This document shows positions 30,572 to 49,477 of a DNA stretch of 64,000 bases, piece by piece. The stretch is from Hysterangium stoloniferum (lineage: Eukaryota; Basidiomycota; Agaricomycetes; Hysterangiales; Hysterangiaceae): the NCBI GenBank assembly GCA_015178975.1, contig WHVD01000152.1, forward strand, positions 1-64,000, written 5' to 3'. The notes beneath the pieces were generated by a model that did not search any database, was not told the DNA's origin, and was given only the letters and a program-made list of their open reading frames with translations. Made by a program: the position numbers and the translations under genes. Numbering within the stretch: the first letter of the stretch is position 1; each line of letters opens with the position of its first letter.

Positions 30572-30974
30572 TGTTAAGGATACATACACAGTGGGTTTCC
30601 AGAGAAACCCACAGGAAATCCAGTAGGACTTGGCTTCAGCTTATAGGCTATGCCCTCATGAGATCGTGTTGTCCAATTTCAAACAGGTGGACAGGAAACC
30701 CAGGGAGTCCGGGCAGAGTTTGTGGGTCAAGGGGTTGTAGGTTGGGGATTGTGGGTTGAGAGGTCGGGGAGTTGAGATAAATAAGTTGGAGGTTAAGAGA
30801 TAGATGCATCGGAGCCCGTGGGCTCCGACTAGTGAGAGCAGTGTAATTCAAAGAGGAGTTTAGAGCGGAAAATGTACTAGATTACTGGGGAGAATCTAAG
30901 CTGATTTTCTGACTGGATTGTATGTACAATATCTGCCAGACCATATAGACTGTGGAATGAATAACATACCAAAT
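30572..30974 (-). repeat. Element A solo LTR, left part (right part 49478-49904)
   Basis: Begins TGTTAAGGATAC and aligns with the A LTR up to ACCAAAT, where an F solo LTR interrupts it. The interruption is flanked by CAAAT at 30970-30974 and 49473-49477. Adding 49478-49904 gives an 830-bp LTR, comparable to the 821- and 841-bp copies. Confidence 0.82.
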
Positions 30975-31110
30975 TGTTGAAACAGTTGAATAACTCTTGA
31001 TAAACACCTGTGAATGTGAGGAAAGTAAACACTAAGGAGACTTTCCCACACCCACAGTGGAGTATGCTGTAGGGTGCTTACCTAAGCACCTACACATCAG
31101 TTACCTTACT
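30975..31110 (-). repeat. F solo LTR, left part (right part 49360-49472)
   Basis: Begins TGTTGAAACAG and matches the F LTR up to CAGTTACCTTACT. The rest (AGGTAACTCACTC...TCTAACA) is at 49360-49472. Together they make 249 bp, the 305-bp F LTR minus one internal repeat unit of about 56 bp. Duplication CAAAT. Confidence 0.85.
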
Positions 31111-31117
31111 TACTTCG

Positions 31118-31128
31118 CCAGATTTACC
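31118..31128 (+). repeat. Left terminal inverted repeat of element Y
   Basis: CCAGATTTACC, 7 bp from the left edge. It is followed by GCGGCGCGGGG. Confidence 0.7.
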
Positions 31129-32360
31129 GCGGCGCGGGGGGGGTGCGCCGCGTGGTCGGGTGGTGACGCGAGTCGGCTCGAGTCAGGTGGCCGGCCGCCT
31201 TACCCGACCACCCGGCCCACCCCGCCACGGCCCACCCCGCACACGTGACCTGGTTTCAAAAACGAACCCCCCTCGTTCCCCTACACACACCGCCCTCCGT
31301 CCTGTCCGTCCTGTCTTGCTCTCGGGGCCGGCCTGCTGGACCCGATGTGAGCGTCCTCACTCATCCCCTCGTTCCCCACCACACACACCGCCCTCCGTCT
31401 CTCGCGGCTCTCTCTCTCTCTCTCTCTCCCTTCTCTCTCGGCGGCCTGGCGGCTCTCCCTCTCTCTCCCTCCCTTGGCCTGGCTCTCTCCCTCTCTCTCT
31501 CTCTCTCGGCCTGGCTCTCTCTCTCTCTCTCTCTCCCTCCCTCTCCCTCTCCTTGGGGCCTTCAGGTGCAGGTGAGCCAGACATCCTCGAACATTATGAC
31601 ACGAACTCATATTGGCTTTCACCCAAGCCAGCTTACTCTTCACCAAAAACAACTCTCCTCTCGTTTAAGCAACTTGAACACATAATTGCACCATGTCTGC
31701 TGAGCAGCCAAGGTTCTCCTCCCCGCCTCAGCCCCAAATGCGGCGGAGCTAATCACGGATGGCTGAAGACTTTCCACACATTCTCTCGTTCACATCGTTA
31801 GTGCGTACTTTCTCGTTTAAGCAACCATGCACACTCCACATGGTCTCCTTTTCTACAGGCTGTACTCGACTACTTGAGCCACACCCCATCTTCAACTCGC
31901 CCGGTTTCTTTGGTCCTATTTGTCGATGAGAAATGTGTTTGCTTTTGCCAGCCAGTGATGAGTGATTATCTGCTTTGATTATTATGCCGATTACTGATCT
32001 CTCTCCCTTTTTTCTTCCTCCTGGTGTTTTTGGGTTTCCACTTCCGCTCCCCTCCACTCGCTCCACTCGCTCCCCTTGCCGCTACTGCGCCCTCCTCTCC
32101 AATCCAACCCCACCTTCAACCTGCCTTAGTGAGCGCGCGCGCGCCCCCCTTTCCCCCCTCAACCACACTTTTATCGTCGTGGTACATAATCGATTGTTTT
32201 GTCCGTATATTAAAATAGTATAAATAAATTCGGATTGAAACGGCTTGTGTTTGTGACTGGGTGTATAAAATTGACACTGAGACTGAAATGACTTAGTGTA
32301 ATATAATGATTGAAACGATGGGTGGCGTTGTTGCGTATATCATGTCATGAATTTTTATTT
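31129..32360. other. Left part of element Y without a confident gene
   Basis: GC-rich start (31129-31260), then a long CT/GA microsatellite-like tract (about 31405-31555), then mixed sequence. Long open frames here are low-complexity on both strands and I do not call them. An ATTTTT-rich run at 32350-32390 overlaps the end of the recombinase gene. Confidence 0.5.
31405..31555. repeat. CT-rich microsatellite tract
   Basis: Runs of CTCTCTCT with interspersed GGCCTGGCTCTCT units, probably slippage-derived. Confidence 0.7.
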
Positions 32361-34805
32361 TTATTTTTTATTTTTATTTTTATTTTTGATTTGACCTTTA
32401 TGGCTTTTTCGCGACTTGATGACCTCCCTGTCCTTCAGATCGTCCGTGATTGCTTCAAGCAATTTCTTGGGACCTTCATGGGCGGCCGGCCATTTGGTGA
32501 GAAATACAGTGTCGTCTTGCTGGCATCTGCGCAACGGTGAATGTGGTGAATTGAGAAAATCAAGCAAGGAACGGCACTGAGTGAGATACTGTAGATAGAT
32601 GGAGATGAACTGTGAGACCTGACTCGCCTTTCAATATATTCCATCACGACGAGCTTTCTTTGGCGGTACTTTATGCCGAATGTCGTTCGATTTTCTCCTC
32701 TCAACCACTCAGGATCCCAATCCTTGAGCGGGACATAATGGCCACGGGATGGATCGGCACTTTCCCAATCGTGAATTATCTGTTTCCAGCACAAATGGAG
32801 TGGGCCTTTCCGTGCGATTGAGGGTATACAGCCTGCAGTTTTCTGGCAAGGTGAGCATGGCAGGGTTTTTTGTGTTTGCGTTCGCATTGATCTCGTTTGG
32901 TGTCATTTGGGATGTTCGAGAATGTGGGCCAGGATTGTCCCCTGCTGCTGCGTGGCCGGTATTTGTGTCGCCTGAAGCAGCAAAGGCGATGGGGGCAGCA
33001 GTTAAAGAAGTGAGGATTTTTTCTTCGAGTGCTTTTGCCTGTGCCACCATTATCTCACGTAGCTCAGATTTGGAAGGTGGCCGTGACTCGACGTGTTCAC
33101 TGAGAAAGGACTTATCGGCTTCGTGAGAGATCGGCCGGAGTGCATCGCCGTGTGATTCTTCATAATGGTATAGTTCATCCAAAAGGTACCGAATCAGGGT
33201 GTCCCGCTGTGATTATTGTGGGGTTAGGGGTTGGGTTAGGGGGTTTAGTTAGAGGTTGGTTAGATATCTGTTCCAAAACATTAAAAAAATAAAGCCTACA
33301 TACGTGTTCTCCTTCAGCCCACCCTCCCCACCATCGAATGATTGCCAGACTCCATCGCTTCCCAAAGTGTGCGTACATAAAACGATACTGCGCTCCACCT
33401 CGGCGAAAACAGTGCGTGGTCAGCCGGCCTCGACCTAAATTGATCTCGCATGCCTCAACAAACTCGTCGAGCCATTTTTGAATGGTATCGTGGGGAATGG
33501 GAGTCTCGATCCGGGCAATTCCATTCGAGCCTATGGCAGGGAAAATATAGTCGTCCGCTTCCAGCGGACGGTGGTAGATGAATTGGTTGGAAAATTGGAG
33601 CCATCGAAGAAAGTGGAAGTGCATGTCGATATTTGGATTCTCCGGCTGCTCGTATATATGATATTCGTGCCCTTTTTTGTAATTCATTTCCAAATTAAAA
33701 TATATACATCAGAGTGGGTCATTCAAAGAGAGAGTGAACTAACCGTGTATAATTTCATCCCTGGTTTGATGGTGAGCCCAGTTCTTCCTATCGAGTAAAG
33801 AGACCTTGAAGTAGGCGTATTTGTAATCGTCATTTGTCTTGAGGTCTAGGGTGATATGTTTATACTGTAGCTTGGCGAGTTCGAAATTTCTGAAATAAAT
33901 TAAATAGTTCAAATTCGCGGGCACTTCACTTCTATTTATATGTAGCTACAAAGACGCACCGGGTCCATAGGGTGAATCCGCTTGTAGCAAATGCACGCAT
34001 CATAAAGTGCTTCACTACAAAGGGAAGTTCCTTCCAGTATTCTCCCTGGGATAGCTTCCCCAGTTCTTCTAGCATCGAATCTGGACAGAGTTGATTTGAC
34101 CATTGAATTATTTTGTCCATATCCTGCTTCGTCATTGCCGTGGAGTGTGAACGGCTTCCCTCGTTTCCGTCACGCTGTTTGATGGCGTCAATGATGCGTT
34201 CGACATCTCGAGAATTGGCTGGATTGCCACAACCAGTCCCTTTCTCGTGATCCCACTGCCAGGGGCCAGACCATCTTCCGTTAGGGTCCCTAATTATATA
34301 TATATATGTACCATACAACATCAGTAGAAGAAGACACAAGTAGTTTTATTTTTACATACACAGTTTCCCACACCTGTTTGAATGCTGCATGTATCTGCCA
34401 TGCTGTTGTCACTTTAGTCTTCTGGGTGAAGCACTTGTATGCAATGAATAATCCAAGAATCCAAGGTGAAGCCCGAGTTGGTATATTGTTGAAAGCGCCT
34501 TCTAGCTCTCCTGGCGTCCAGTCAAAACTGCCTAGGTGGCAACCTAGTTCATTAGCCCCTGGAGGAATAGTCGGGGATTGTTCGGTTTCCACCAGCTCCT
34601 TCAACCACATTCTTGCCTCACGAAGCCGTTGGTTATATTTAATATTTGTCGTTTTGGCAAATCCGTGCTCTTTCATTGAGATGTCTTTGACCGTTTTTAA
34701 CTCAGCAACGGACAGTCTTGCCGGCTTTGGCTTATTTTTTGTCATAGAACGGCCACATTTCTTCGTTGAAGTAGTTGTATGCATGTGCTTCAACTTTGGC
34801 GACAT
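32361..34805 (-). CDS. Tyrosine recombinase of the agaricomycete Crypton-like family
   Basis: Exons I can support: 34805-34360, 34289-33960, 33889-33744, 33671-33304, 33205 onward. Introns are 70-99 nt, most with GTATGT/GTGCGT donors, and the frame holds across all four junctions. The N-terminal half is helical (SAM-like: RLREARMWLKELVE, LGLFIAYKCF). The catalytic half has Arg in TLWTRNFEL (residue 259), HCFRRGGAQYRF (about residues 392-403), RWWGGWAEGEH, and the likely nucleophile in DTLIRYLLDEL (Tyr about 436). This is the R..HxxR..H/W..Y set. The C-terminal block YVPLKDWDPEWLRGENRTTFG (about 32780-32690) is in another frame, and TVFLTKWPAAHEG (near 32510) lies after a probable further intron; a frameshift near 32850 or an undetected intron is needed. 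It would cut and rejoin DNA at element ends. Confidence 0.78.
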
Positions 34806-35360
34806 CCCTTTGACAAACCTTGAGAAGGCAGAGGCAAACTTTGCCCTTGTTACTCAATAAATCAATCTGAGACAATACACGAATACAGTGACTTTTTCAA
34901 AGTGATCATTCACATAGATTGGTTTAAAATACATCCAATGTGGCGATATTTAACTACATATACAAGAAAAATACCGCAATTTGGTTCTACCCCTTCTTTT
35001 CCCCATTGATCCCACCCCGCCCCAGAATCAAGTCCAGCTCTTATCTATCGCCACCTCATTGATGGTGCAGAAGGAAAAGGGGTGGGAGCTCCTCTTCGAC
35101 TTCACCACCCATACCATATCACATTTGTTATAGTGATGGTAGTGGTGGTAGTGGTGGGTTGGTAAGGTGTTACGTTGTCAGACATTGTTTCTCATGCTGT
35201 GAATGCTTTGCCACTAAAATGATTATATTATAGGGGTCAGTAATCATCGAAAGAAACTGTATTTGGAGGAAACGTACCATGTATGTCCTGCATAACATGA
35301 TGTTTAACTCAGGCCCTTAAGACCGTTGTTTTGCCACCATGTATGATGAAAAACAGGACA
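34806..35360. other. Spacer between recombinase gene and next gene-like segment
   Basis: Contains ATG-less AT-rich sequence and a GTGGTGGTAGTGGTGG stretch near 35140. No ORF or element is recognised. The recombinase promoter should lie here. Confidence 0.4.
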
Positions 35361-35997
35361 TCACCAATAAGCAAACATGACCTGTTGACGATCAGCATTT
35401 TGACTAGTGAGATAGTAGTTCAAGTAGTTACACGCACCATGTGTTGCACCCGCATTCCTTGTCGATACCCTAGCGCTTGCAGATGTGCTTCCTAGGCCTG
35501 ATCCTTTTGCTGCTGATGGTGATGGTTTGGTGGTGGGCGGCGTTGGTTTTGGCATCGGAAGAGGACATCGTCCTGAAGAGGGCAAAAGAGGACGATGATG
35601 ATGCTGGGACGGAGGAATCCTCAGGAGCGGTATCTGTAGCTTTCTGGGATGGGGGCAGGCTGATGGAACGGAAGATGCAGTAGTAGGGTTGGTAGACGTG
35701 TCCATAATGCTTGGAACCTAATAAAATACCATTAGAATCCAGTCACATTTCCAAAACAGGGTCAAGAAACTCACAACTACATCTCGCCCACAGCAAGAGA
35801 GAGAGCAAGGCGATTCATGGTAACAACCTGACCTCGTGTTGCCCCCAGTGGGTCATATCTTCCGTTTCGGATGCACTCCAGTTTTCCGTGATGAAGGCAT
35901 ATCGTGTCCAGTCGTCAGTTAGACCGCGAATGCAGAGGTAGCCCGCATAGGAATGAGGAGCTAAAAGTCCACATCCTATGTAAGTAAAACGGAGCAT
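35361..35997 (-). CDS. Hypothetical two-exon gene fragment (unknown product)
   Basis: Exon 35997-35833 encodes LLAPHSYAGYLCIRG and ENWSASETEDMTHWGQHE. A GTCAGG...TTATTAG intron (35832-35718) joins it in phase to 35717-35361, Pro/Ser-rich (VPSIMDTSTNP...). The composite is 173 residues and ends at 35361. It may be part of a longer gene: further exons could lie right of the G1 insertion (47129 on), since the frame is open upstream. No domain is recognised. Confidence 0.35.
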
Positions 35998-36099
35998 TAG
36001 TACTGTAAATAGATGTTAAAAGTGACCTGTGACTTACTGTGACACGTGACACACACAAGTCTGAGGAAAGTTGTTACTATTCAGGTCACTAACTACAAG

Positions 36100-36109
36100 C
36101 TTATATATG
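36100..36109 (-). promoter_or_regulatory. TATA box of the G LTR
   Basis: CATATATAAG on the minus strand, downstream of the heat-shock and CAGCTG arrays in element orientation, as expected for the U3 core promoter. Present in the other full-length G LTRs. Confidence 0.55.
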
Positions 36110-36119
36110 TTATACATCA

Positions 36120-36262
36120 GTAGGCTTGTCAGCTGTCATAAGTGACAGCTGGTTGACAGCTGGTTGACAGCTGTCATAAGTGACAGCTGATTGACAGCTT
36201 GAATGGAAACTGACAGCTGATTGACAGCTGGAATACAAAGTGACAGCTGATTGACAGCTGTC
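36120..36262. repeat. CAGCTG-containing repeat array in the G LTR
   Basis: Imperfect tandem units built on TGACAGCTG(A/G)TTGACAGCTG, each with the palindrome CAGCTG (E-box core). Unit number differs between copies and explains LTR lengths of 289, 306, 338 and 349 bp. Confidence 0.8.
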
Positions 36263-36297
36263 ATGGGAAATGAACTGGGAATACCCTGGAACATGCT

Positions 36298-36332
36298 GGA
36301 AGCTTCTAGAAGGTTCTAGAAGGTTCCAGAAG
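36298..36332. promoter_or_regulatory. Heat-shock-element array in G1 3' LTR
   Basis: Seven gapless alternating nGAAn/nTTCn pentamers, with an eighth GGAAC one pentamer away. Confidence 0.72.
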
Positions 36333-36461
36333 GTTTTGGAGACAGTGGAGGCAGTTTTAACAGACCCCCCTGATCTCACATGTCTCCAAAGAAAAAGAAA
36401 CAGAGAGAGAGAGAGAGAGAGACTTTGCTAAACTACAGAGAGTAAGAAAGAAAACAAGAAA

Positions 36462-38870
36462 CTAAGTCCTTATACCCATTCCATCACGGCAAAATTGAAC
36501 CTTGGGAGTGGATAGAGGCTTGGTTAGAATATCTGCAATTTGTTCTGCAGTAGGAATATAGGAAGGAGCAATACACTTGGCATTTACAGCATCCCTAAGC
36601 CAATAGTAGCGCAGGTCAAGATGTTTCATCCTTCCATGATGCTCAGGATTCTTAGCAACACTGATGGCAGACTGGTTGTCAATGTGTAGAGTGGAGGGTT
36701 GATCAACTTGGTAGCCAAATTCACCTAGGATTTGCCGCATCCAGGCAATCTCCTTGCCAGCTTCTACAGCAGAGACAAATTCTGCTTCAGTTGTAGAAAG
36801 TGTGACAATACTTTGCAGTTTACTACTCCAGCCAATAGCACCTCCAGCCATCATAGTGACATAACCACCAGTGGATCTTCCAGAATCAATGCAATCACCA
36901 TGAGCAGCATCAGTGTATGTGGTGAATAGTTCAGAGCCACATTTACCAGAGTAATGCAACTTGTAATCCAGTGTACCTTTTAGGTATCTGAACAAGTGCT
37001 TCACTGCTGTCCAATGCTTTGGTCCAGGATTGCCATTAAAACGTGCCAAGTAGGACACAGTATAAGCAATATCTGGACGGGTCATAGTAGCCAGGTATTG
37101 TAAAGACCCAACAGCACTGAGATAAGGAACACTATGCATGAAATCCACCTCTGCAGCATTCTCAGGACCCATTTCTTTGGAAAGAGATGTACCAGGTGTC
37201 ATAGGTGTGAGAACTGGATGACAGTCAGACATGTTATAACGCTCAAGCATGTTGAGAATAAACTGTCGCTGATCAAGAGTAAGGAGTCGCTTAGAGCGAT
37301 CTCTGCCAACTCCCACACCAAGTAAATAAACAGTGGATCCAAGATCACGGCATTTGAAATGCAGGGACAATTGCTTGACAGCTTTGTCAATGGCAAGAGT
37401 GGACTTGGATGCAAATGTAATATCATCAATGTAAATGGGTACAAAGATCTTCACCTCTCCATTTGAATAAATGTAAACAGAGGTATCAGATTCAATTCGT
37501 TTGAACTCCATTTCAGTAAGTGCACCATGTAACTTGATGTTCCATTGACGAGATCCCTGCTTGAGACCATAAAGTGATTTCAAGAGTCTGAGAACCTTAT
37601 TAGGACCTCCTTGATGGAAGCCTTCAGGTTGTCTCATATAGATTGTCTCATCAAGGTCACCATGGGTGAAAGCAGCAGAAATGTCAACAGAGCGCAAGTC
37701 CATATCTTCAATGGCAGCTAGGGCCAGAATCAAACGCAGAGTTGCAGGTCTAAAAGTAGGTGCAAACACTTCATTGTAGTCAATGCCAGGACGTTGTGAG
37801 TATCCTTTGGCAACAAGACGAGCTTTATAACGCTCAATTGTGCCATCTGCATTGTGTTTGACTTTAAACACCCAACCCGAACCAATTGCCTTTGCACCAA
37901 CTGGAAGATCAACAAGTTCCCATGTCTTGTTCTCTACCAGTGTATTATACTCTGCATTGATAGCTTCTTGCCATTTATCTGCATCATCACCTTTCATAGC
38001 CTGCTTGTAGTTTTGTGGATCAGCAGTTGAAGCTGTTCCAACAAACTGTACTTCCTCATAATCAATGTCCTCATCATCATCCTCAGCTAGAGCTGGAGCT
38101 GGTTGTACTTTCCACCATTCACCCGGTTGCTTTGAAACACGCTGAGAGCGACGAAGTGGTGGTTCTGGTGCAGGTGGAGGAGGCAGTTGAATGGGTTCTT
38201 CAACCCCAGGAGGAGGCAAAGGTGGTTCAGGAAGTGCAGGAACATGAGCAGGAGGTATAGGAATATGAGCAGGAGGTGCAGGAATATGAGTAAGAGGAAC
38301 AGAAATATCATTATCCCCCTGTACTTCTGGCACAAATGAAGAAATGTCAGAGTGTGGTGTATTTGGGACAAGCCTGATATTAGGCATTGGTCCAGTAGTA
38401 GATAGACCAGGAAAGTGGCGTTCATCAAATACAGCCCGTTCAGAGATGATAAACTTCTTTGTAACAGGGTTGTAGAATTGCCAACCTTTGTATCCCACAG
38501 GATAGCCTAGAAAGAGGCATTTCTCCATGTGTGACTGAAGTGACTTCCTTTTGTCCTTTTGAATGTAAACATAGGCAGTACACCCCCACACTCGCAAGTT
38601 ACTCACATCTGGTTTCTGCTTGTACCATTGCTCATAGGGTGTAGTTTTAGGTAATGGTGCCGTAGGCAGACGGTTCCAGACATAAACATAAGATGTCACA
38701 GCATGGTTCCAGAAAGAAGCAGGCATACGCGCCTCATGCATCATGGCAGTGACATGCTCAGCCATAGTGCGATTGGCTCTTTCTGCAACTCCATTCTGTT
38801 GAGGGCGATTGCGAGTAGTATGGCGGCGTACTATTCCACATTCATCTGTAAACTTGATAAAGGCATTTGA
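36462..38870 (-). pseudogene. G1 Pol, C-terminal part: integrase end, RT, RNase H
   Basis: Open frame from AFIKFTDECGIVRRHTTRNR (integrase) through RPQQNGVAERANRT and a Pro-rich hinge. The RT follows with RPATLRLILALAAIEDMDLR, LYGLKQGSRQW and the catalytic YIDDITFASKS, then RNase H (TYTDAAHGD, TTEAEFVSAVEAGKEIAW, LHIDNQSAISVAKNPEHHG). The stop is at 36464-36462. The frame is intact, but the N-terminal part lies beyond the F1-H insertion. Confidence 0.9.
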
Positions 38871-39175
38871 TGTTGAAACAGTTGAATAACTCTTGACAAA
38901 CACCCTGTGAGTGTGAGGAAAGTAAACACTTAATGTATTCAACTGTGAAATAACTACATACCTGTGAGTGTGAGGAAAGTAAACACTAAGGAGACTTTCC
39001 CACACCCACAGCGGAGTATACTACAGGGTGCTTACCTAAGCACCTACACATCAGTTACCTTACTAGGTAACTCACTCAATACTGCACCTACAGTGCTGGG
39101 AAAAATACTACAAATATCAGAAAAATATAGGGAACATCATAGACTATGTAAGAGCTGTAATATCATACTCTAACA
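38871..39175 (-). repeat. F1 3' LTR
   Basis: 305 bp, TGTTGAAACAG...CTCTAACA on the plus strand, apparently identical to the F2 LTRs. It contains a partial tandem repeat of GTGAGTGTGAGGAAAGTAAA. Confidence 0.92.
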
Positions 39176-39196
39176 CTCCCACCTGATGAGACAGCT

Positions 39197-42100
39197 CTAT
39201 GCTAGTCCCAGTAGTTTTCGTAAGTATTCTACCTTTGGCTTAGCCAATGGTTTTGTCAATAAATCAGCAGGCATCTCTGAAGTAGGGAGATGAACAACTT
39301 TGATCTTCCCACTATCAACTTCCTGCCTTAACCAATATGTTCTCAAATCCAGATGCTTCATACGGCCATGATGTTCAGGATCTCTGGCAACTGCAATAGA
39401 AGATTGGTTGTCAAGATACAAAGTGGATGCAGTCTTTTGAGGATATCCCAATTCCTCAAATAAGTTTCGCAACCATAGCACTTCCTGACCAGCTGACACT
39501 GCTGCAATATACTCTGCTTCAGTAGTAGAGAGAGTTACAATAGTCTGGAGTTTGCTCTGCCAGCTAATGGCTCCAGTACCCATCTTAACCACATATGCAC
39601 CAGTAGATTTTCCAGTTGACTTATCACCTCCATGGTCAGCATCTGAATAAGACACAAACAATTCCCTGTCATTACTAGGGCCAAAGGTCAAGCCCAAGTC
39701 AAGGGTGCCTTTGAGATATCGAAAGAGATGTTGTACTGCTAGCCAATGAGCCTTTCCTGGATTGTGATTAAATCTGGCTAATACTCCAACAGTATAGGCA
39801 ATGTCTGGACGAGTGGCAACAGCCAAATACATAAGAGAACCAACAGCATGGATGTATGGAATGTCCTTCATGTATGCAATCTCTTCAGGAGACACTGGAG
39901 CCTGGTCTTTACTCAATTTTGAGTTAGGTATCATAGGTGTACCAATGGGATTGCAGTCAGCAAGACCATAACGCTGTAACATGTCCAAGATGTATTGACG
40001 CTGTGATAGAGTAATAGTACGCTTTGTCCTGTCTCTTTCAATGCCAACACCTAACAAGTAAGAAGTAGGACCAAGATCATGCAATTTGAAGTGGCTCTTT
40101 AGATCATCTTTGAGCTTTTTGATAGCCTCCTTGGATTTAGATGCAATAGTCATGTCATCTACAAATACTGGTATAATGACTTTGACATCACCCTTTTGGA
40201 AGACCCAAATGCTATGATCGCATAGCACTTGTTTGAAACCCAAACTGAGCAGGACAGCATTCAACTTCTTGTGCCAGATACGAGGTGACTGGCGTAAACC
40301 ATATAGTCCTTTCAGAAGAAGTAAGAACTCATCACGAGCACCTTGGTGAAAACCTTCAGGCTGCTGCAAGTATACTTCCTCTTCAAGTTCACCATTCAAG
40401 AATGCAGAGGAGATATCTACACTCTCAAGTTCCATGTCCTCCAGTGCAGCCAATGCTAGGACAGCACGCAAAGTGGCCCATTTGGCAGTAGGAGCAAAGG
40501 TATCAGTGAAGTCAAACCCTGGTCGTTGTGCATAGCCTTTTGCAACAAGACGAGCTTTGAACTTGTCAATTGACCCATCCTTCTTACGCTTGATCACAAA
40601 CACCCAACGAGAGCCAATAGCTTTACGACCCTCAGGTAGTTTAGCAAGGCGAAAAGTGCCATTTTCAAGCAGGGATTGCATTTCTGCATATGCAGCGTCA
40701 TACCACTTGTCAGCATCAGGACTTTGTAAGGCCTCTTTGAGAGTTCTCGGTGCATCATCATGAGCACTGGCCTTGTAGGCAAACTCAAAGGCTTCATCCA
40801 CACCAATGTAAAGATCTCCCTCACTGGCAGCTAGGGCTTCTTCCTCAGACTCAACTGGAGGAGGAGAATGTAGTGGAGAATCCTCTGCCTCATCACTGGA
40901 CTCAACTACAGGAGTAGATTCTCTATAGTTGTGGATGTGAGCAGGGTCAACTTGCCAGAAACGCTTAGGAGGAACTCTGTTTCTGGGTGGATTGCGACGT
41001 GGTTGAGGAGGAGGACTCGGTGAACGTTCAGAATGTTCAGAATTAGAATCAGAGTTGGAACTAGGACCAGGAGGCAAAGCATTATTCTGACCATCTCCCA
41101 CTGGATTTGGTTCCTGTGGAGCTCCCATCTGATTAGGCTGGGCTCCCACCTGAATAGACCTAGAGGGTCCAGGAATAAACAAATCAATAAATTGTGGAGT
41201 ATCAGGAAGAACATCAGGAGCAGTAGGAGTAGAAGGTATGGCAGGTTTAGACAAGCCTGGTAAGACTCTCTCATCAAAGACAGCATTATTACTGATAATA
41301 GTCTTCTTAGTCAAGGGATTGTAAAACATCCAACCCTTATAATCTGGAGGATATCCAATAAAGACACATTTCTGTGTATGAGAGCCAAGTCCAATACGTT
41401 GATCCTTCTGTACATGCACATAAGCAGTACAGCCAAATACCCTAAGATGTGATACTTCTGGTTTCCTACTATGCCAAACAGTATAAGGCACAGAATGCTT
41501 AAGAGCAGTGGTAGGTGAGCAGTTGCGCACATGAGTAATGGCAATGACAGCATGTCCCCAGAATGAGGGAGGGAGGTGGGATTCAGCCATAATTGAAGTA
41601 GCCCCTTCTTCCAATGTTCTGTTGAAGCGTTCAGCAACCCCATTCTGATGTGGTTCATTCCGCACAGTATGCTGCCGGCTGATGCCAGCAGTGGAAAGGA
41701 AGGTATCAAACTCCTTAGACATATATTCTCCACCCTTGTCATCTCTGAATATCTTGATCTTCTGACCAAGCAAGTTCTCCACTTTAGCCTTATATTGCTT
41801 AAATGCCTGAAAGGCATCACTCTTATTTTTGAGTAATGCAATCGAAGCATAGCGTGAGGCATCATCAATGAAAGTGATCCAGTAGCGAAACCCTTCCACA
41901 GTTTGTGTAGGCAAGGGACCATGAACATCACTGTGAATGAGTGCAAGTGGTTTAGTATAGCGTGTTGTTGCTATTTTATTAATCACTCTGTTCTGTTTTC
42001 CAGCCAAACAAGGTTCACAAATAGGATCAGGAGACGTGTGAGAGTCAATCTTTATCCCACCAACCAAATCACCTTTGAGGAGCTTCTGGATATCGGCATG

Positions 42101-43441
42101 ATTGAGATGATTAAAGCGACGATGCCAAAGTGTGGAGTCCAAGGGACAGGTTGTAACAAGACCTGCATAATCCGTCATAGGTACCGTCATTCCATCCAAA
42201 TAGGCCTGGTTATGTTCATTGACTGTGGCAGTGAAACGCAAGACCTTTCTCAAATAGAAAGACATGGTGGAATGAAAGATAGAGACACGGAAATTCTTTC
42301 TCTTTGTCAAATACAAGACAGAGAGGAGGTTACTTGTGAGATGGGGAACATGGAGAACCCTTTCAAACTCTATTATTACATTTCCATTTCCTTTAGGCTT
42401 AAACCGCACTGCTCCTATCCCTGCAGACATAACTATTTGTCCATTTGCAACTTGGATAGGTGTTTGAAACGGGGTATAACTTGAAAACCAATGACGATGG
42501 GGAGTCATGTGCGAAGAAGCACCTGTGTCAGCAGTCCAGTCAGAACTAGCATTGACAAGGAGAGCACAAGATGGATCGGTAGAGTCAGGGATAGAAACAC
42601 TTGCATTTCCAGCACTCTCTGGTTTCTTCTCCTCTGATACCTTGTCAGACGCATTAGCTTTGTCAGCCTTAGCAGTCTTTCTTTCTTTATACTCCTTTTT
42701 CTTCTGCTCAACTTTGGCCTTTGCCTGTTTCTGTGCATTTGCATACTCGTAACAATTGTCTTGGGTGTGGGTGGAACCATTGCAGAATGTGCAAGGAACT
42801 TTACCAGAAGTGTTGGAAGTCTTTGACACAATTTTGTTCGCCGTCTCTAAACTTCTGGCAGACTGCAAACTCTCTTGTGATGCAAAGTGAGTTTTGACAT
42901 CAGAGAATGTGATAGCAGTATTCATCATTAAAGATGAAGTCCACACAGAGTCAGATTCAGGCAGAGAACGAAGTAAAGTGAGAGCAGCAAGCTCATCATC
43001 CAGCATGGCAAGAGTGTACCCCTTTGGACGCAAGTTCTGGACACGTGCACAAACCTTGTCAACACGACTCATTAATGAAGTTAGAGATTCATCAGGTTCC
43101 TTCCGAATATTAAAGAGGTCATTGTAGGCACTAAAACGAACTGCAGGGAGTTGTTTATTATGTGCCTTATCAATTTTAGACCACATATCATCAGGACCAT
43201 CATCAATGTCAACATGGGTGCGCTGTGTAGGTCCAAGAGAGCGCCATATGATACCAGCTGCTTTATTGGAGCGCTCCAACCAGGCAGACTGTAAACTAGT
43301 CTCACTAGGTTGTTTTTCTTTGCCAGTGGCAATAGAGAGACAGTTCTCCATACGCAAAAGACCAATTACGTCATGTCTCCAATCCTCATAATTATTCTCT
43401 CCCAATATGATACTACGTTTGTAAGTATCACTGGATGCCAT
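39197..43441 (-). CDS. F1 Gag-Pol polyprotein (intact)
   Basis: A 1414-residue single ORF from MASSDTYKRSIILG. Gag with UBN2-like core; zinc knuckle CTFCNGSTHTQDNC (about 217-230); protease DWTADTGASSHMT (about 300-312); integrase zinc region LWHRRFNHLNHADIQ ... CEPCLAGK and core HSDVHGPLP, FIDDASRY, DDKGGEY (about 500-572); RT with FVDDMTIASKS (about 1091-1101); RNase H SYSDADHGGDKS, TTEAEYIAA, LYLDNQSS. All catalytic residues are present and length is normal for a copia polyprotein, so the protein should be functional. It lies in the integrase gene of G1. Confidence 0.95.
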   Translation of the reverse strand: MASSDTYKRSIILGENNYEDWRHDVIGLLRMENCLSIATGKEKQPSETSLQSAWLERSNKAAGIIWRSLGPTQRTHVDIDDGPDDMWSKIDKAHNKQLPAVRFSAYNDLFNIRKEPDESLTSLMSRVDKVCARVQNLRPKGYTLAMLDDELAALTLLRSLPESDSVWTSSLMMNTAITFSDVKTHFASQESLQSARSLETANKIVSKTSNTSGKVPCTFCNGSTHTQDNCYEYANAQKQAKAKVEQKKKEYKERKTAKADKANASDKVSEEKKPESAGNASVSIPDSTDPSCALLVNASSDWTADTGASSHMTPHRHWFSSYTPFQTPIQVANGQIVMSAGIGAVRFKPKGNGNVIIEFERVLHVPHLTSNLLSVLYLTKRKNFRVSIFHSTMSFYLRKVLRFTATVNEHNQAYLDGMTVPMTDYAGLVTTCPLDSTLWHRRFNHLNHADIQKLLKGDLVGGIKIDSHTSPDPICEPCLAGKQNRVINKIATTRYTKPLALIHSDVHGPLPTQTVEGFRYWITFIDDASRYASIALLKNKSDAFQAFKQYKAKVENLLGQKIKIFRDDKGGEYMSKEFDTFLSTAGISRQHTVRNEPHQNGVAERFNRTLEEGATSIMAESHLPPSFWGHAVIAITHVRNCSPTTALKHSVPYTVWHSRKPEVSHLRVFGCTAYVHVQKDQRIGLGSHTQKCVFIGYPPDYKGWMFYNPLTKKTIISNNAVFDERVLPGLSKPAIPSTPTAPDVLPDTPQFIDLFIPGPSRSIQVGAQPNQMGAPQEPNPVGDGQNNALPPGPSSNSDSNSEHSERSPSPPPQPRRNPPRNRVPPKRFWQVDPAHIHNYRESTPVVESSDEAEDSPLHSPPPVESEEEALAASEGDLYIGVDEAFEFAYKASAHDDAPRTLKEALQSPDADKWYDAAYAEMQSLLENGTFRLAKLPEGRKAIGSRWVFVIKRKKDGSIDKFKARLVAKGYAQRPGFDFTDTFAPTAKWATLRAVLALAALEDMELESVDISSAFLNGELEEEVYLQQPEGFHQGARDEFLLLLKGLYGLRQSPRIWHKKLNAVLLSLGFKQVLCDHSIWVFQKGDVKVIIPVFVDDMTIASKSKEAIKKLKDDLKSHFKLHDLGPTSYLLGVGIERDRTKRTITLSQRQYILDMLQRYGLADCNPIGTPMIPNSKLSKDQAPVSPEEIAYMKDIPYIHAVGSLMYLAVATRPDIAYTVGVLARFNHNPGKAHWLAVQHLFRYLKGTLDLGLTFGPSNDRELFVSYSDADHGGDKSTGKSTGAYVVKMGTGAISWQSKLQTIVTLSTTEAEYIAAVSAGQEVLWLRNLFEELGYPQKTASTLYLDNQSSIAVARDPEHHGRMKHLDLRTYWLRQEVDSGKIKVVHLPTSEMPADLLTKPLAKPKVEYLRKLLGLA

Positions 43442-44042
43442 GACACGTCAATATCCACCAAGAATTTAACTTAAAAAGAACTAAGTAATTGGACTCGCAG
43501 TTGTAACACCGCCTTGCTCAACAGGGTTACCGTGATATTGCAAGGAAGGTAAAAACAAAGGCCCACTGAAGAGCACAATGCCAACAGTTCAAGTTCAATG
43601 TATCTAAAAGACCGTGTTAAAAAGGGAAAATGACGTGGCACAGACCCAGATGATACTGTGAAGTGCTTGAGGTGTGAGGGAAGAGTGTGACTGGAGAGAG
43701 AGGTGACAGGGTGTGACAGGGTGAGTCACAAGGGTGATAAAAATGAAGTTGCCCAAAAAAGGGAAATTGAGCGACGACAAGCGATTTGGAGCGTGGGAAT
43801 ATATTTCCTTTTATGGACTCGGGCGCCTAAATGGGCGAAAAATGCGCACAATCACAGGTGTGAGATGTGAGTTGAAAAAGCGACCAAATCAGGCCAAAAT
43901 CCAAGGAGATATAACCAAAATAAAATCCAAACGCAATGTAGAGTGTTTTGGACAAGTAGAAGTTGTCAGAAAAGATGTGCAAAGTGATGGATTGCGCAGA
44001 TGACAACTGGATGTACCGGTTTAGAAGCCGGGGCCCATAACC

Positions 44043-44335
44043 TGTTGAAACAGTTGAATAACTCTTGACAAACACCCTGTGAGTGTGAGGAAAGTAAACA
44101 CTTAATGTATTCAACTGTGAAATAACTACATACCTGTGAGTGTGAGGAAAGTAAACACTAAGGAGACTTTCCCACACCCACAGCGGAGTATACTACAGGG
44201 TGCTTACCTAAGCACCTACACATCAGTTACCTTACTAGGTAACTCACTCAATACTGCACCTACAGTGCTGGGAAAAATACTACAAATATCAGAAAAATAT
44301 AGGGAACATCATAGACTATGTAAGAGCTGTAATAT
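44043..44335 (-). repeat. F1 5' LTR, truncated
   Basis: Matches the F LTR except that its outermost 12 nt are missing. At 44336 it passes directly into the T-arm region of the H LTR tRNA-like sequence. Primer-binding site at 44029-44042. Confidence 0.88.
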
Positions 44336-44800
44336 GTTCAATCCCCAGTCTGGCTATTCATTTTCTACATTACTCATGTTTTCTAACATGGTAGCAACTC
44401 CAAGGTTAACTTGGTTTGGCTGTATTTGTGTGTTTGGTATAGTGGACAAGTCTGGACGAAAAAGAGCCAGAGAGGACCTATACTGGCATGTGATATAGTT
44501 AATACCCAAGATCGAACCTGGAGTGTAGAATGAACAATGCTGGCATTAAGGGGGTGTGTTAGATTATATAATACCAACCATTGTTCCAACTGGGACCATA
44601 TGGTGTACAGCTCTGAGTTCAGTGTGTATATGATCTAATAGGAATGGCGCTTAGGGTTATATCCTTAAGTACAGTGTAAGACCAAACCTACCCAAGGTCA
44701 GATGGTGTAGTGGTTAACACCTTCGTTATGTAATCGAGAGATCCTGGGTTCAATCCCCAGTCTGGCTATTCATTTTCTACATTACTCATGTTTTCTAACA
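44336..44800 (+). mobile_element. H: second TRIM family with tRNA-like LTR (5' LTR truncated)
   Basis: A 3' LTR of 244 bp (44557-44800, TGTTAGATTA...TTCTAACA) and a 5' LTR tail (44336-44388) that repeats the last 53 bp of it. Between them is a 168-nt non-coding interior starting TGGTAGCAACTCC (a conventional tRNA 3'-end primer-binding site) and ending in the purine tract AAGGGGGTG. It has no coding capacity and unrelated sequence to family T. Its right end carries the TTTGA that pairs with the left end of F1. Confidence 0.8.
44696..44767 (+). other. tRNA-like sequence in the H LTR
   Basis: 72 nt with an acceptor stem (GGTCAGA/TCTGGCT), D stem (GGTG/CACC) and perfect T stem (CTGGG/CCCAG around TTCAATC). 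The anticodon arm is poor. It lies at LTR offset 140-211, nearly the same as in family T (155-228). Confidence 0.72.
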
Positions 44801-46532
44801 TTTGACATATACTCCCCCCCTTTGTCATCCTGCAGAGCTTTGACCTTGCAACCCAGAAGATTCTCAGCATAAGCTTTGTATCTCCTGAATGCTTCAAATG
44901 CATCACTCTTCCGTTTCAAGAACAAAACAGCTCGCAACTTGGTGCAATCATCAATAAAGGTTATCCAGTAGTGGTAACCCTCAGTTGTTTGCACAGGAAG
45001 TGGTCCATGTAGATCACTATGAATAAGTTCAAGTGGTGTCTGAGAATGACTTGGTGAGATAGGGAATGGACTAGCAGTCATTTTGCCAGCAAGGCAAGGT
45101 TCACAGATAGGATCAGGTTGTTCCTTTGAGTCAAGGTTTAAGCCAACCACCAATCCTTCTCTGATCATCTTCTGGACATCAGCATAGCTGTGGTGTCCAA
45201 GACGGCGATGCCAGAGATTGATATCAAAGGGAAGGGTGGAGACAGCACCAGCTTGCTCAATAATAGGTGCAGTGACACCATTGAGGATACCTGCATTCTG
45301 TGCAGTAACTCTGGCTGTAAACATAGTCTGTCCAGAGTGTTTGAAATGCATTGTTGTTCGATCAATGTGTATGAGTAGTCCTTTGTGCCTTGTCAGATAA
45401 AGACAAGACAGTAGGTTACTGCGCAGTTGTGGTACATGCAAAACTCTTGTAAGCTCCACAGATCGCGATTTCCTTCCATTTATAACTGGGTTGAATACCA
45501 CAGAACCAACTCCTGCAGAGTAGATAACAGTGTGATCTGCTAACTTGATTGGACACATAATGGTGTGTAGTTACGCAGCCAATGACTATGAGGAGTCATA
45601 TGACTACTAGCACCTGTATCAGCAAGCCAATCATAGTCAGAACCATTCTGCAGGGTGGAGGAATCGGATGAGGAGAAAGCAAGTGCATTTCCAGTATATT
45701 CAACATTGTTCTGAGACATTGTCTTCTGAGGCCTATTTGGCTTCTTCTTCCCTTTAGCACAATTGGTAAGGACACTCTCCTGTGCTTCCTGCTGCTTCTT
45801 GATGAAGCGATGACACTTGTCCATTGTATGGTTGGTCATGGAGCAGAAAGTACATTTGAGAAATGCAGTGGATGCATTGCCCTTTACAGTAAGTGCAGAT
45901 GCAACTGCAGGAGCTTGTGAAGCCCGATGACGGCGTTGTGACTCTTCTGTGACAAAAGCTTGTTGGATAGTAGCCTTGTCCAGCTTGTCCATCAGAAGGA
46001 GAGAAGAGGCAAAGTTGTCAAACTGCTCAGGAAGTGCCCTGATCATTGCCATTGATGCAAGTTCCTCATCAAGTTTGGCAAGATCAAAATTCAATGGGCG
46101 CAGATCCTGGATGGCACGGATGGCTAGATCCACCCGATTCATCAGAGTTTGCAAATTCTCATTCTCTTCCTTTCTGATGGAGAAGAGATCATCATACGCA
46201 TTGAAGCGCATGCCAGGGCGCTTCTGCAAGTGTACATCACACAGACTGGTCCACATCTTGACCGGATCACCCTCAATCCCTTTAAGATGAATCTTTTGAT
46301 CATCCTCAACACTCAAGTACATCCAACCTGCTGCTTTGTCTAACTTGAGAGCCCAAGCATCAAATGCAGTTTGCTGAGCCTCTGTGGGAGATGAGGATAG
46401 TGCAGGTGCAATGGAGGTGGCCTCAACAATGCGCCAGACACCCTGGGCACGAAGCCAAGCCTGCATCTCACCAGACCAGGTGTTGTAGTTATGAGAGTTG
46501 AGTTTAGGGAATTGGGGGATGGAAGATGACAT
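44801..46532 (-). pseudogene. G1 Gag, protease and integrase N-terminal part
   Basis: Starts MSSSIPQFPKLNSHNYNTW at 46532; an in-frame ATG also lies at 46559. UBN2-like Gag, zinc knuckle CTFCSMTNHTMDKC (near 45850), protease DWLADTGASSHM (near 45610), then a frameshift near 45555 between NYTP and PIKLADH. Integrase zinc region LWHRRLGHHSYADVQ...CEPCLAGKM and core HSDLHGPLP, FIDDCTKL, DDKGGEYMS end at the F1-H insertion. The frameshift and the insertion both disable it. Confidence 0.88.
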
Positions 46533-46760
46533 TGTAGTATACACAGAGCAAACTCGCAAAGAAGTTCAGAAAAAAGGTATTTAACTCGAGGTCCAGACGG
46601 TAGTCTCGAGGGAAACTCAGCCTTAGTGGCGTACAAGTTCCTCCCTACTAGCAACAGCAATAAGGCTGGGCCTGGCAGGGGAATATAAAAGTATAGGCTG
46701 AAACTTACTCAAAAGAAGCGAGTTTGCAAAACGTTATACTGTACTAGAGCGCTTAGAGCG

Positions 46761-46774
46761 CGGGGCCCATAACC
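46761..46774 (-). other. G1 primer-binding site (half-tRNA type)
   Basis: GGTTATGGGCCCCG on the minus strand directly inside the 5' LTR. Its complement CGGGGCCCATAACC contains the CAT anticodon followed by AACC, as in the anticodon arm of initiator tRNA-Met. The same 14 nt occur in F and T. Confidence 0.7.
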
Positions 46775-47123
46775 TGTTAAAAGTGACCTGTGACTTACTG
46801 TGACACGTGACACACACAAGTCTGAGGAAAGTTGTTACTATTCAGGTCACTAACTACAAGCTTATATATGTTATACATCAGTAGGCTTGTCAGCTGTCAT
46901 AAGTGACAGCTGGTTGACAGCTGGTTGACAGCTGTCATAAGTGACAGCTGATTGACAGCTTGAATGGAAACTGACAGCTGATTGACAGCTGGAATACAAA
47001 GTGACAGCTGATTGACAGCTGTCATGGGAAATGAACTGGGAATACCCTGGAACATGCTGGAAGCTTCTAGAAGGTTCTAGAAGGTTCCAGAAGGTTTTGG
47101 AGACAGTGGAGGCAGTTTTAACA
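46775..47123 (-). repeat. G1 5' LTR
   Basis: 349 bp with the heat-shock array at 47059-47093, the CAGCTG array and the TATA box. Duplication ATAGA follows at 47124. Confidence 0.92.
47059..47093. promoter_or_regulatory. Heat-shock-element array in G1 5' LTR
   Basis: Seven contiguous nGAAn/nTTCn pentamers about 190 bp upstream of the TATA box in element orientation. As the 5' LTR copy it would drive transcription of the element. Confidence 0.72.
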
Positions 47124-47339
47124 ATAGAATGTTGACATATCTACATAGCATGATAAGAAATGACGAGCATTCAGAGGCAGTCGTCGTGGTTCAACTTCAA
47201 CCGCTCTTTGTAGAAGCGGAGAATACGCACCACGATGGTGACAGACACCTCATAGCTGCTCCTCCCGCTCTCTTGTGTGCCGCCAAACGTGGCGCTGGGA
47301 TATAGGCAGTCCTGGCTGTACGACAGCGTGGCTTGGCGG

Positions 47340-48010
47340 GGTTGATGGCGGTGTAAACTGGGACTCTTTGTCTTGGTGGTGCGGCGGGATGGAGATGGAT
47401 GGACGATACAAGTACCGAGACAGGCGAGAATGCCGGAAGAGGGGGAGAGAGAGAGAGAGAGACATGGGGTGCGGTAGGGCATCGGTGCGTCCACCGCCGC
47501 GTCCTCGATCACGACGTGATGTCTTTCTTGGAGTGGAGATGGGCGATACGGGGGTACCGTGACTGGCGAGAATGCTGGAAGAGGGGGAGATGAGAGAGAT
47601 ATGGGGTGGGGCTGGCGGGCTGGCTGGCGGGTGCGGTAGGGCGCTGGTGCGTCCGCCGCCGCGTCCTCGATCACAACGTGGTGTCTGTCTTGGAGTGGAG
47701 ATGGGCGATACGGGGGTACCGTGACAGGCGAGAATGCCGGAAGAGGGAGAGAGAGAGAGAGAGAGATGGGCGAGAGATGGGCGATGCGAGTACCGTGACA
47801 GGCAGGCGGGAGAGATGGGGTGGGGCTGGGAGAGATGGGGTGGGGCTGGGGAAGTGCGGTAGGGCATCGGCATCGGTGCGACTTATTTCTGTAGGTAGTG
47901 ACTTACTCGGTAGGTTTCAGGTTTTGTTATTGTATCCACCACCGCGTCCTCGATCACGATGTGGTGTCTCTCTTGGAGTGGAGATGAGCGATACGGGGGT
48001 ACCGTGACTG
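47340..48010. repeat. Tandem repeat region in element Y (unit roughly 150-170 bp)
   Basis: About four imperfect copies containing CGCGTCCTCGATCACGACGTG, CTTGGAGTGGAGATGGGCGA and GTGACNGGCGAGAATGC, with GA microsatellites between. The minus strand is open in more than one frame (RHHVVIEDAA...DAPxPYRT), so it could be a repetitive exon or a satellite. I do not call a gene. Confidence 0.6.
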
Positions 48011-48019
48011 GCGAGAATA

Positions 48020-49353
48020 GCCAGGTGACCTTGACAACGCGAGGTCACCAGCGTCCACCAGAGCGCCGCTGGGCGGACCACCACCTTATCACTCGCCGCA
48101 AACAGTTGTCTCCGAAGATTGAACTTTGTCAGCTAGTGTAGAGGGTGGCTAGGGGAAACGGGATAGTAACGGTTTCGAGCCGACGAGAGCTCTCATCAGG
48201 GGGATACCGCTACCCCAACCGTTTCGCCCATCCAGAATTACTGATTAGGAGTCTACTACTGAGCCTGGTCCAAAGGGAGTGATAAGATAGTCGATTCGTG
48301 CCGACCTACGCGTGCATCGAACTCTGAGAATCTTGGTGACCCAGTGGTGGGTAGTATACGGTTGGGAGCGTGTACCGAGGCCAGCAGGTTTCCCTGCTGG
48401 ATCGGATTTGTCGATGTCCATACAGCAAGACGATGGTGGAATCGAGAATGCCACGTTCTGAACCGTACCAAGCCAGACCAGAGAAGCCGCGTTACATGGA
48501 ATGAAGATGGATGGATGTGCGAAGACATGCTGAGTCAATCGGGCGCTTCAAAGTGGTCGAGGTTGTGGGGGTGGTTTGAACCATTACGTAAGCAATTTCG
48601 CTGAGAGTGACATGACGAGGAGCAACTGCCCGTGCAAACTTGCACTAGATTAATCAATTTTTTGTATAGAAATATATATATATTTGTTGGTTATAAATTA
48701 TAATTTTTTTGAAGAACCATTTGGAAGTGTGCCACCCGGATGTGTAAATCTACGGTAAATCCACGGTAAATCTACCTGTAAATCTCGCTAAGCGCTCACT
48801 TACCTCCTATCTTACCTGCTCTTACCACTGTAAATCTAGCCAAAATGAAAACAGATGGCTATATAAAAAATCAAGGAGCATGCCGTGCTCTCCCAGAAAT
48901 GGGACTCATGTAATTTATATTGGTAATTTGAATATGGCAGGGTCTATACGTCCCATAAATGATATAACAAAACTCATCGCCGCCCCCCCCCCTACCCAAT
49001 GAAAAAGAATTCGCTAGAAAAAATAGTTTTTTGGTGGTGCAAATGGAAATAATTATTTATTTATTTATATATATAAAATAAAATAAATCGCACTGCGACT
49101 TTGTTGGTGGTGCTATCTTACTACGACAAAAGAAAGAGAGAGGAGTGTGTGTGTGCGTGCGTGCGAGCGCGGAACCCGCGTGAGTGAGCGGCGGTGTAGA
49201 AGTGAGTGAGTTGCCAAAGGTCCCCTAAAGCCGGGTCCCCGGATGTCGCTGCCGTGCGGCGGGGCGCGGCCGTCGTGCCGGCGCGATGCCGCAATTTACG
49301 GGGGTCGACGAGATTTACGCCGCGTGATGGGTAAATCTGGACAAATATAGTGA
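48020..49353. other. Right part of element Y without a confident gene
   Basis: No ORF with recognisable domains. Notable are repeated GTAAATC(T/C) motifs at 48745-48835 and their inverse at 49294 and 49311, an AT-rich zone at 48660-48720, and a GC-rich end (49240-49330). The motif is part of the terminal repeat, so these look like subterminal repeats. Confidence 0.5.
49330..49340 (-). repeat. Right terminal inverted repeat of element Y
   Basis: GGTAAATCTGG, exact inverse of 31118-31128, 13 bp from the right edge. Confidence 0.7.
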
Positions 49354-49359
49354 CTTACT

Positions 49360-49472
49360 AGGTAACTCACTCAATACTACACCTACAGTGCTGGGAAAAA
49401 TACTACAAATATCAGAAAAATATAGAGAACATCATAGACTATGTAAGAGCTGTAATATCATACTCTAACACA
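49360..49472 (-). repeat. F solo LTR, right part
   Basis: Continues the LTR begun at 30975 (AGGTAACTCACTC...CTCTAACA), followed by the CAAAT duplication. Confidence 0.85.
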
Positions 49473-49477
49473 AATTC

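Follow-up and report, generated by a model that had tools for sequence, protein, structure and literature searches.

The window analyzed here, a 64,000-nucleotide stretch of contig C60 in the 111-Mb, 554-contig genome of Hysterangium stoloniferum, carries at positions 31111 to 49353 a block of DNA bounded by short direct repeats, with inverted repeats near its two ends and one recognizable gene of its own, which encodes a tyrosine recombinase (YR). The gene lies on the minus strand at 32709 to 34805, an array of five GTAAATC motifs lies on the plus strand at 48744 to 48836, and the space from 36014 to 47123 is taken up by a long terminal repeat (LTR) retrotransposon that falls outside the YR element proper. 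These features are very probably those of a family of compact YR DNA transposons whose movement relies on site-specific recombination between the cores at the two ends, probably via a circle.

As judged from its empty sites, the block is a discrete insertion, in agreement with the preliminary description of this DNA. Joining the flanks of the window copy through one CTTACT gave a query that was matched over 170 of 170 bases, at 96 to 98% identity, in 41 of the 42 listed rows (40 of 563 candidates scored), and three retrieved empty-site copies read GTTACCTTACTAGGTAAC. The interrupted sequence is a solo LTR with halves at 30975 to 31110 and 49354 to 49470, bordered by CAAAT at 30970 to 30974 and 49471 to 49475. 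Both halves and both CAAAT copies can be read, which confirms that removing the block together with one CTTACT restores this LTR with its CAAAT duplication. The 6-bp direct repeat, as it was first defined, consists of a left CTTACT at 31105 to 31110, the target core within the LTR, and a right CTTACT at 49354 to 49359, also taken as the target core from empty sites and other copies.

Empty sites with a single CTTACT had been forecast, and they are present for other copies besides that of the window. The joined flanks of L023 (contig C162) find uninterrupted sites in 19 of 41 rows, at 95 to 99% identity over at least 184 of 185 bases, and those of L036 (contig C511) match all 185 bases at 100% in 3 of 42 rows. 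The target of L022 is also seen unoccupied in a left flank that L024, L029, and L030 have in common. The boundaries are fixed, and BLAST matches of the close copies L021 to L023 begin at window position 31108 and end at 49358 to 49359 despite differing flanks. As a separate observation, the two diverged copies L036 and L040 (contig C511) occupy an identical CTTACT position within one repeat family; for this pair, as for the common flank of L024, L029, and L030, either one target site was reused or the region was duplicated.

Genome searches with the ends of the element returned 11 matches to a 150-bp left-end query and 26 matches to a 154-bp right-end query. Both ends are paired at C223 (7,187 bp), C536 (6,865 bp), and C162 (7,207 bp), where long pieces are about 95 to 99% identical, and at C135 in a copy of 7,427 bp that is about 90% identical; pairing at about 7 kb had been forecast. 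The ends are 11 kb apart in C268 and 18.2 kb apart in the window, the latter figure including the passenger. Taken together, the copies indicate that this is a real transposon family with near-identical, recent members. A left-end pattern allowing up to two mismatches occurs 42 times in the genome, compared with 6 times for its reversed control, so that the element ends are present beyond chance. The right end lies within 20 kb in 12 of these 42 matches, and a YR exon is found on the opposite strand up to 9 kb inward in 21, of which 19 are counted as firm, since the exons assigned to C1:4098083 and C135:238277 are about 8 kb off and doubtful. Exon matches to the YR number at least 175 in the genome, ranging from 95% to 33% identity among the matches listed (150 of 196 candidates scored).

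Some members have two ends and no YR in between. The match list contains three such cases, at C453 (2.9 kb), C535 (2.9 kb), and C38 (4.2 kb), to which C507/L033, with an altered left core and a further insert, and probably C135:238277 (4.0 kb) are added. These look like nonautonomous deletion derivatives. The preliminary description had named ends without the recombinase as evidence against its reading; such ends do exist literally at C453, C535, C38, and C507/L033, but, read as derivatives, they are not counted against a YR transposon. As a side observation, the right part of the element (window 47398 to 48022) contains repeats offset by about 160 bp, which are partly missing in L022.

The YR gene is modeled with five exons (34805 to 34360, 34289 to 33960, 33889 to 33744, 33671 to 33304, and 33206 to 32709) separated by GT-AG introns, and its product contains the motifs HCFRRGG and RWWGGW, so the intron-bearing recombinase first reported at this place stands. 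Compared with the C536 copy, the last exon of the window copy changes frame near 32830; the C536 model also takes in sequence down to 32364. By structure comparison, the predicted fold is that of a tyrosine recombinase of the Cre/lambda-Int type; families not shown in the VIA-align listing are not thereby excluded. Residues R259, K294, H394, R397, W425, and Y437 are at least 90% conserved among 56 of the 120 listed homologues, which gives the R-K-H-R-W/H-Y catalytic set of these enzymes, as assigned by sequence rather than by residue-level superposition of structures. The closest protein match, P0001, also comes from H. stoloniferum and is 99% identical. Neither it nor the window YR matches any Pfam family at an E value of 1, and PDB sequence searches retrieved nothing credible (an alpha amylase at E = 0.1 and a tRNA-splicing endonuclease at E = 0.069).

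A total of 357 homologues of the YR were found, and the 120 that are listed are all from Agaricomycetes. A tree of 56 YR homologue rows, with a root for drawing only and without Crypton or Starship proteins, places the 21 rows of the Phallomycetidae genera Hysterangium, Sphaerobolus, Gautieria, Ramaria, and Clathrus together on one side of a branch supported at 100/99. Within that group, the Hysterangium rows require at least three changes. The pattern fits an old family with mostly vertical inheritance and several lineages in one genome. The sequences show purifying selection.

Near the ends of the element, the left inverted repeat CCAGATTTACC is located at 31118 to 31128 and the right inverted repeat GGTAAATCTGG at 49330 to 49340, both given on the plus strand; the right one is also found in other copies. 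The earlier account of an 11-bp inverted repeat at the ends holds for the presence of both repeats but not for their position, given that they lie 3 and 12 nucleotides inside the core, respectively, and neither is at the extreme end. At the left end, the core common to other copies is ACTTACT at 31108 to 31114, which copy comparison suggests is carried by the element. If the ends were joined, the order would be GGTAAATCTGG, 12 nucleotides, ACTTACT, TCG, and CCAGATTTACC, an arrangement similar to recombinase crossover sites, in which inverted repeats likewise flank a core.

The cores on the two sides behave differently. Both ends could be read at nine loci (window, L021, L022, L023, L024, C268, L036, L038, and L040), which are not a blind sample because the left ends of L036, L038, and L040 were found with a CTTACT-containing pattern (three changes allowed). 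All nine have CTTACT as their left core; on the right, six have CTTACT, whereas L021 has CTTACC, L024 has CTCATC, and C268 has CTTCCT. The telling locus is L024: the flank of L022 shows its target without the insertion, as CTTATC, and a plain target duplication would place CTTATC on both sides, yet the left core of L024 is CTTACT. A target duplicated on both sides is compatible with the window, L022, L023, L036, L038, and L040, and L024 is contrary to it. The left core CTTACT thus seems to be carried by the element and the right core to derive from the target. A related subfamily, characterized from its left ends, is found at C45, C514, C32, and C1, where the YR is 60 to 61% identical to that of the window and the same left repeat adjoins a CTTATG core in place of CTTACT, a pairing of recombinase and repeat that persists despite the different core.

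These observations also bear on the alternative of an ordinary terminal inverted repeat (TIR) transposon mobilized by a DDE transposase acting in trans, with a 6-bp target site duplication (TSD) and the YR as a passenger or resolvase. The inverted repeats and the 6-bp direct repeat do resemble TIRs and a TSD, and Tec elements carry both enzymes, according to the available part of PMC3212892. The C536 copy contains 22 frames of at least 91 amino acids, made up of four YR exons, four frames overlapping the YR, ten that were scanned, and four outside the scan. The ten scanned non-YR frames gave no Pfam match at E = 0.1, and no DDE transposase is among them. Further points against a DDE element are the unequal cores of L024, which disfavor a simple TSD made by such an enzyme, the strong preference for the core sequence, the inverted repeats set back from the very ends, and the same left repeat retained by YRs of about 60% identity. 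We regard a DDE transposon as very improbable and return to recombination by the YR itself.

Two further observations concern the cores. The left end of L038 (about position 9459, minus strand) reads CTTACTGAATCAG in place of CTTACTTCGCCAG, and its right flank too starts with CTTACTGAA, possibly a trace of strand exchange past the core. In the right flanks of L022 and L023 and at about 490 to 520 of L025, the targets contain a CTCTCAGCGA...TCGCTGAGAG-type hairpin immediately next to the core; this hairpin may be the terminus of a different repeat.

The motif GTAAATC of the inverted repeats recurs inside the element as a helically phased array. In the window, the five motifs start at 48744, 48755, 48766, 48778, and 48830, so that four sites are 11, 11, and 12 bp apart and a fifth follows 52 bp on, about 0.5 to 0.6 kb inside the right end. 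GTAAATC/GATTTAC occurs 9 times in the C536 copy, against a mean of 0.8 and a maximum of 6 in 300 dinucleotide shuffles. The full spacing is retained in 11 of 16 right ends (window, L021, L022, L023, L024, L026, L031, L033, L035, L038, and L040), and an alignment of ten right ends with at least three sites each places many substitutions between the sites. Arrays of this kind are similar to the arm sites of integrases, and the GTAAATC motifs are possibly arm-type sites for the recombinase.

In the mechanism that we propose, the recombinase would bind the GTAAATC-containing inverted repeats beside the 6- to 7-bp core (ACTTACT), and probably also the phased array. Recombination between the two end cores would then release the element, most likely in circular form, and the core of the circle would recombine with one resembling it at another site (CTTACT or a near relative). 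Once integrated, the element would have its own core on the left and that of the target on the right. Of this account, the discrete insertion, the single-core empty sites, the fixed boundaries, the YR fold with its conserved catalytic set, the near-identical recent copies, and purifying selection can be read from the sequence. A junction of the expected right-end/ACTTACT/left-end order has one genomic instance, in C268, which insertion into the end of another element explains as well. There (L025 1 to 983 and L026 3550 to 4300), the copy adjoins the right end of another element across one ACTTACT, and the sequence of that other element reappears inverted beyond the opposite side of the copy; the arrangement looks like such an insertion.

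Several points weigh against this interpretation. Movement, binding, the circle, excision, and strand exchange are all inferred from sequence. The core asymmetry is partly shown, with L024 as its one clean case, since the targets of L021 and C268 are not known and a later single-base mutation could explain them; the selection of three of the nine left ends noted above has the same bearing. For L021/C223, none of 40 rows spans both sides of the empty site, and one row enters the left flank by about 7 bases only. The left junction of the window reads CCTTACTTACTTCG, 4 bp beyond a simple model of one core plus the element end, and L022 and L023 do not have the extra bases. On the protein side, the template modeling scores from Foldseek are modest (0.25 to 0.29 by query and 0.42 to 0.50 by target for the 15 best), and the predicted local distance difference test value of the model is below 50 at residues 425 to 444, the stretch with Y437. 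The array is partial in 3 of the 16 right ends (L032, L034, and L036) and absent in 2 (L037 and L039). The 4 extra bp at window 31105 to 31114 might, as a guess, stem from slippage or from a joined-end junction of greater length.

The passenger at 36014 to 47123 has TG..CA ends, identical end repeats of 349 bp, and a TSD of ATAGA at 36009 to 36013 on the left and 47124 to 47128 on the right, and it is missing at this place in L021 to L023. It holds a second LTR element at about 38871 to 44335 with repeats identical over 293 bp, of which the copy at 44043 to 44335 seems to be short of the last bases relative to that at 38871. The identical 349-bp and 293-bp repeats mark both as young insertions within the YR element. 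The frames of the passenger, judged by eye, were read as Copia Gag-Pol. Without the 11.1-kb passenger and one TSD copy, the YR element measures about 7.13 kb, matching the 7.1 kb given before. The suggestion of a cargo-bearing, Starship-like element had to be abandoned: the extra DNA is a nested retrotransposon, no second gene was recognized in the ten scanned frames, and the YR has no DUF3435 match.

No description of the family was found in the open-licence PMC literature, a scope that leaves Repbase and Dfam outside the comparison and a database-only description possible. New here are the core asymmetry, the phased GTAAATC array, the relatives with a CTTATG core, and the two-ended derivatives without YR. 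Tentatively, and with chances that we see as close to balanced, fungal YR DNA transposons could have in this family their third major lineage, separate from both Cryptons and Starships, with a wide distribution in Agaricomycetes, mostly vertical inheritance, and an integrase-style architecture made up of a core brought by the element, inverted core-type sites, and a phased array of arm sites. Its recombinases would then be the many Pfam-less mushroom proteins called "DNA breaking-rejoining enzyme" or "Integrase". A large Pfam-less protein family, present as hypothetical proteins across mushroom genomes, gains a likely function and defined DNA ends, and known ends would help annotators to recognize such genes as transposons. 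Core and repeats are short enough for a plasmid excision assay, and the circular intermediate thought to serve fungal YR elements becomes testable.

Among the closest known systems are the Cryptons, for which the available text of PMC3212892 gives direct repeats of 4 to 6 bp and no TIRs, the CryptonF group combining a YR with a GCR1_C domain. The present family is likewise a DNA transposon with a single YR gene, 6-bp direct repeats (CTTACT on both sides), and a proposed circle, and it differs in having inverted repeats and in that neither the window YR nor P0001 gave a GCR1_C match. One alternative, to which we give some weight while considering it unlikely, is a divergent Crypton in which inverted repeats were acquired and GCR1_C disappeared or gave way to something else. 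A nonsignificant alignment with CryptonF-like proteins still matches up THxxR and GGW, but GCR1_C is detected in only 2 of 56 homologues (best E = 0.074), compared with 17 of 19 in the CryptonF-like set, and the profile comparison with that set is nonsignificant (E = 0.41).

Starships, in the portions available of PMC12134995, have a DUF3435 captain, direct repeats, sometimes TIRs, and a variable, often sizeable cargo; empty sites and a repeat copy perhaps carried by the element are further likenesses (PMC12134995, PMC12506042, and PMC13066641, each in part). A circular intermediate is described as not yet reported for them in the accessible text of PMC12506042. The present element, with direct and inverted repeats, is about 7 kb long, carries no recognized cargo, shows no DUF3435 match in the window YR, and has its YR read from inside toward the left end. 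It could be a diverged or reduced Starship whose YR is a remote cousin of the captain and whose cargo was lost or never present, which we judge rather improbable. Of the 56 relatives, 15 do show weak DUF3435 matches (best E = 5e-4), and the same genome has a DUF3435 gene. The window YR and P0001, in contrast, show no DUF3435 match at E = 1, the three weak matches examined in detail cover only 40 to 43 residues and fall under the curated cutoff, the comparison with 11 DUF3435 proteins is nonsignificant (E = 0.36), and no cargo gene was recognized in the ten scanned frames. The earlier reading is supported as to a YR element with inverted repeats and a 6-bp direct repeat that has moved in a basidiomycete. 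Its novelty in a basidiomycete calls for caution: Starships with captain, direct repeats, and TIRs were reported in 2026 from the basidiomycete Tremella fuciformis (PMC13066641, as far as its available text goes), and the present genome itself holds a DUF3435 gene and a CryptonF-like gene.

As to kinship with Crypton and DUF3435 enzymes, the two profile comparisons above are nonsignificant. Since the comparison between the DUF3435 and CryptonF-like sets is nonsignificant as well, the profile test cannot resolve kinship, and kinship is not disproved; together with weak Phage_integrase matches in 13 of 56 relatives, the weak DUF3435 matches keep a distant link possible. The genome also contains a DUF3435 gene of the Starship-captain type (L050, C539:156800-159800), with homologues in other Agaricomycetes and two ascomycetes, and a CryptonF-like gene (L051, C35:1034500-1038500) whose protein has NDC10_II and GCR1_C, so that three kinds coexist. 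DIRS and Ngaro are YR retrotransposons and have the YR in common with the present family, which shows no reverse transcriptase match in the ten scanned non-YR frames. Both are named in the available part of PMC3783388.

By the defining domains of those two groups, the family is neither CryptonF nor Starship; its YR is of a kind that has been little described, and in its working the family would resemble a site-specific integrative element. Lambda and Tn1549 are integrative elements with arm-type sites. Although the present gene is eukaryotic and intron bearing, one motif serves both the array and the core-type sites, and binding is putative, the family resembles them in its inverted core-type sites beside a short crossover core, its apparently element-carried core, and its phased extra motifs.
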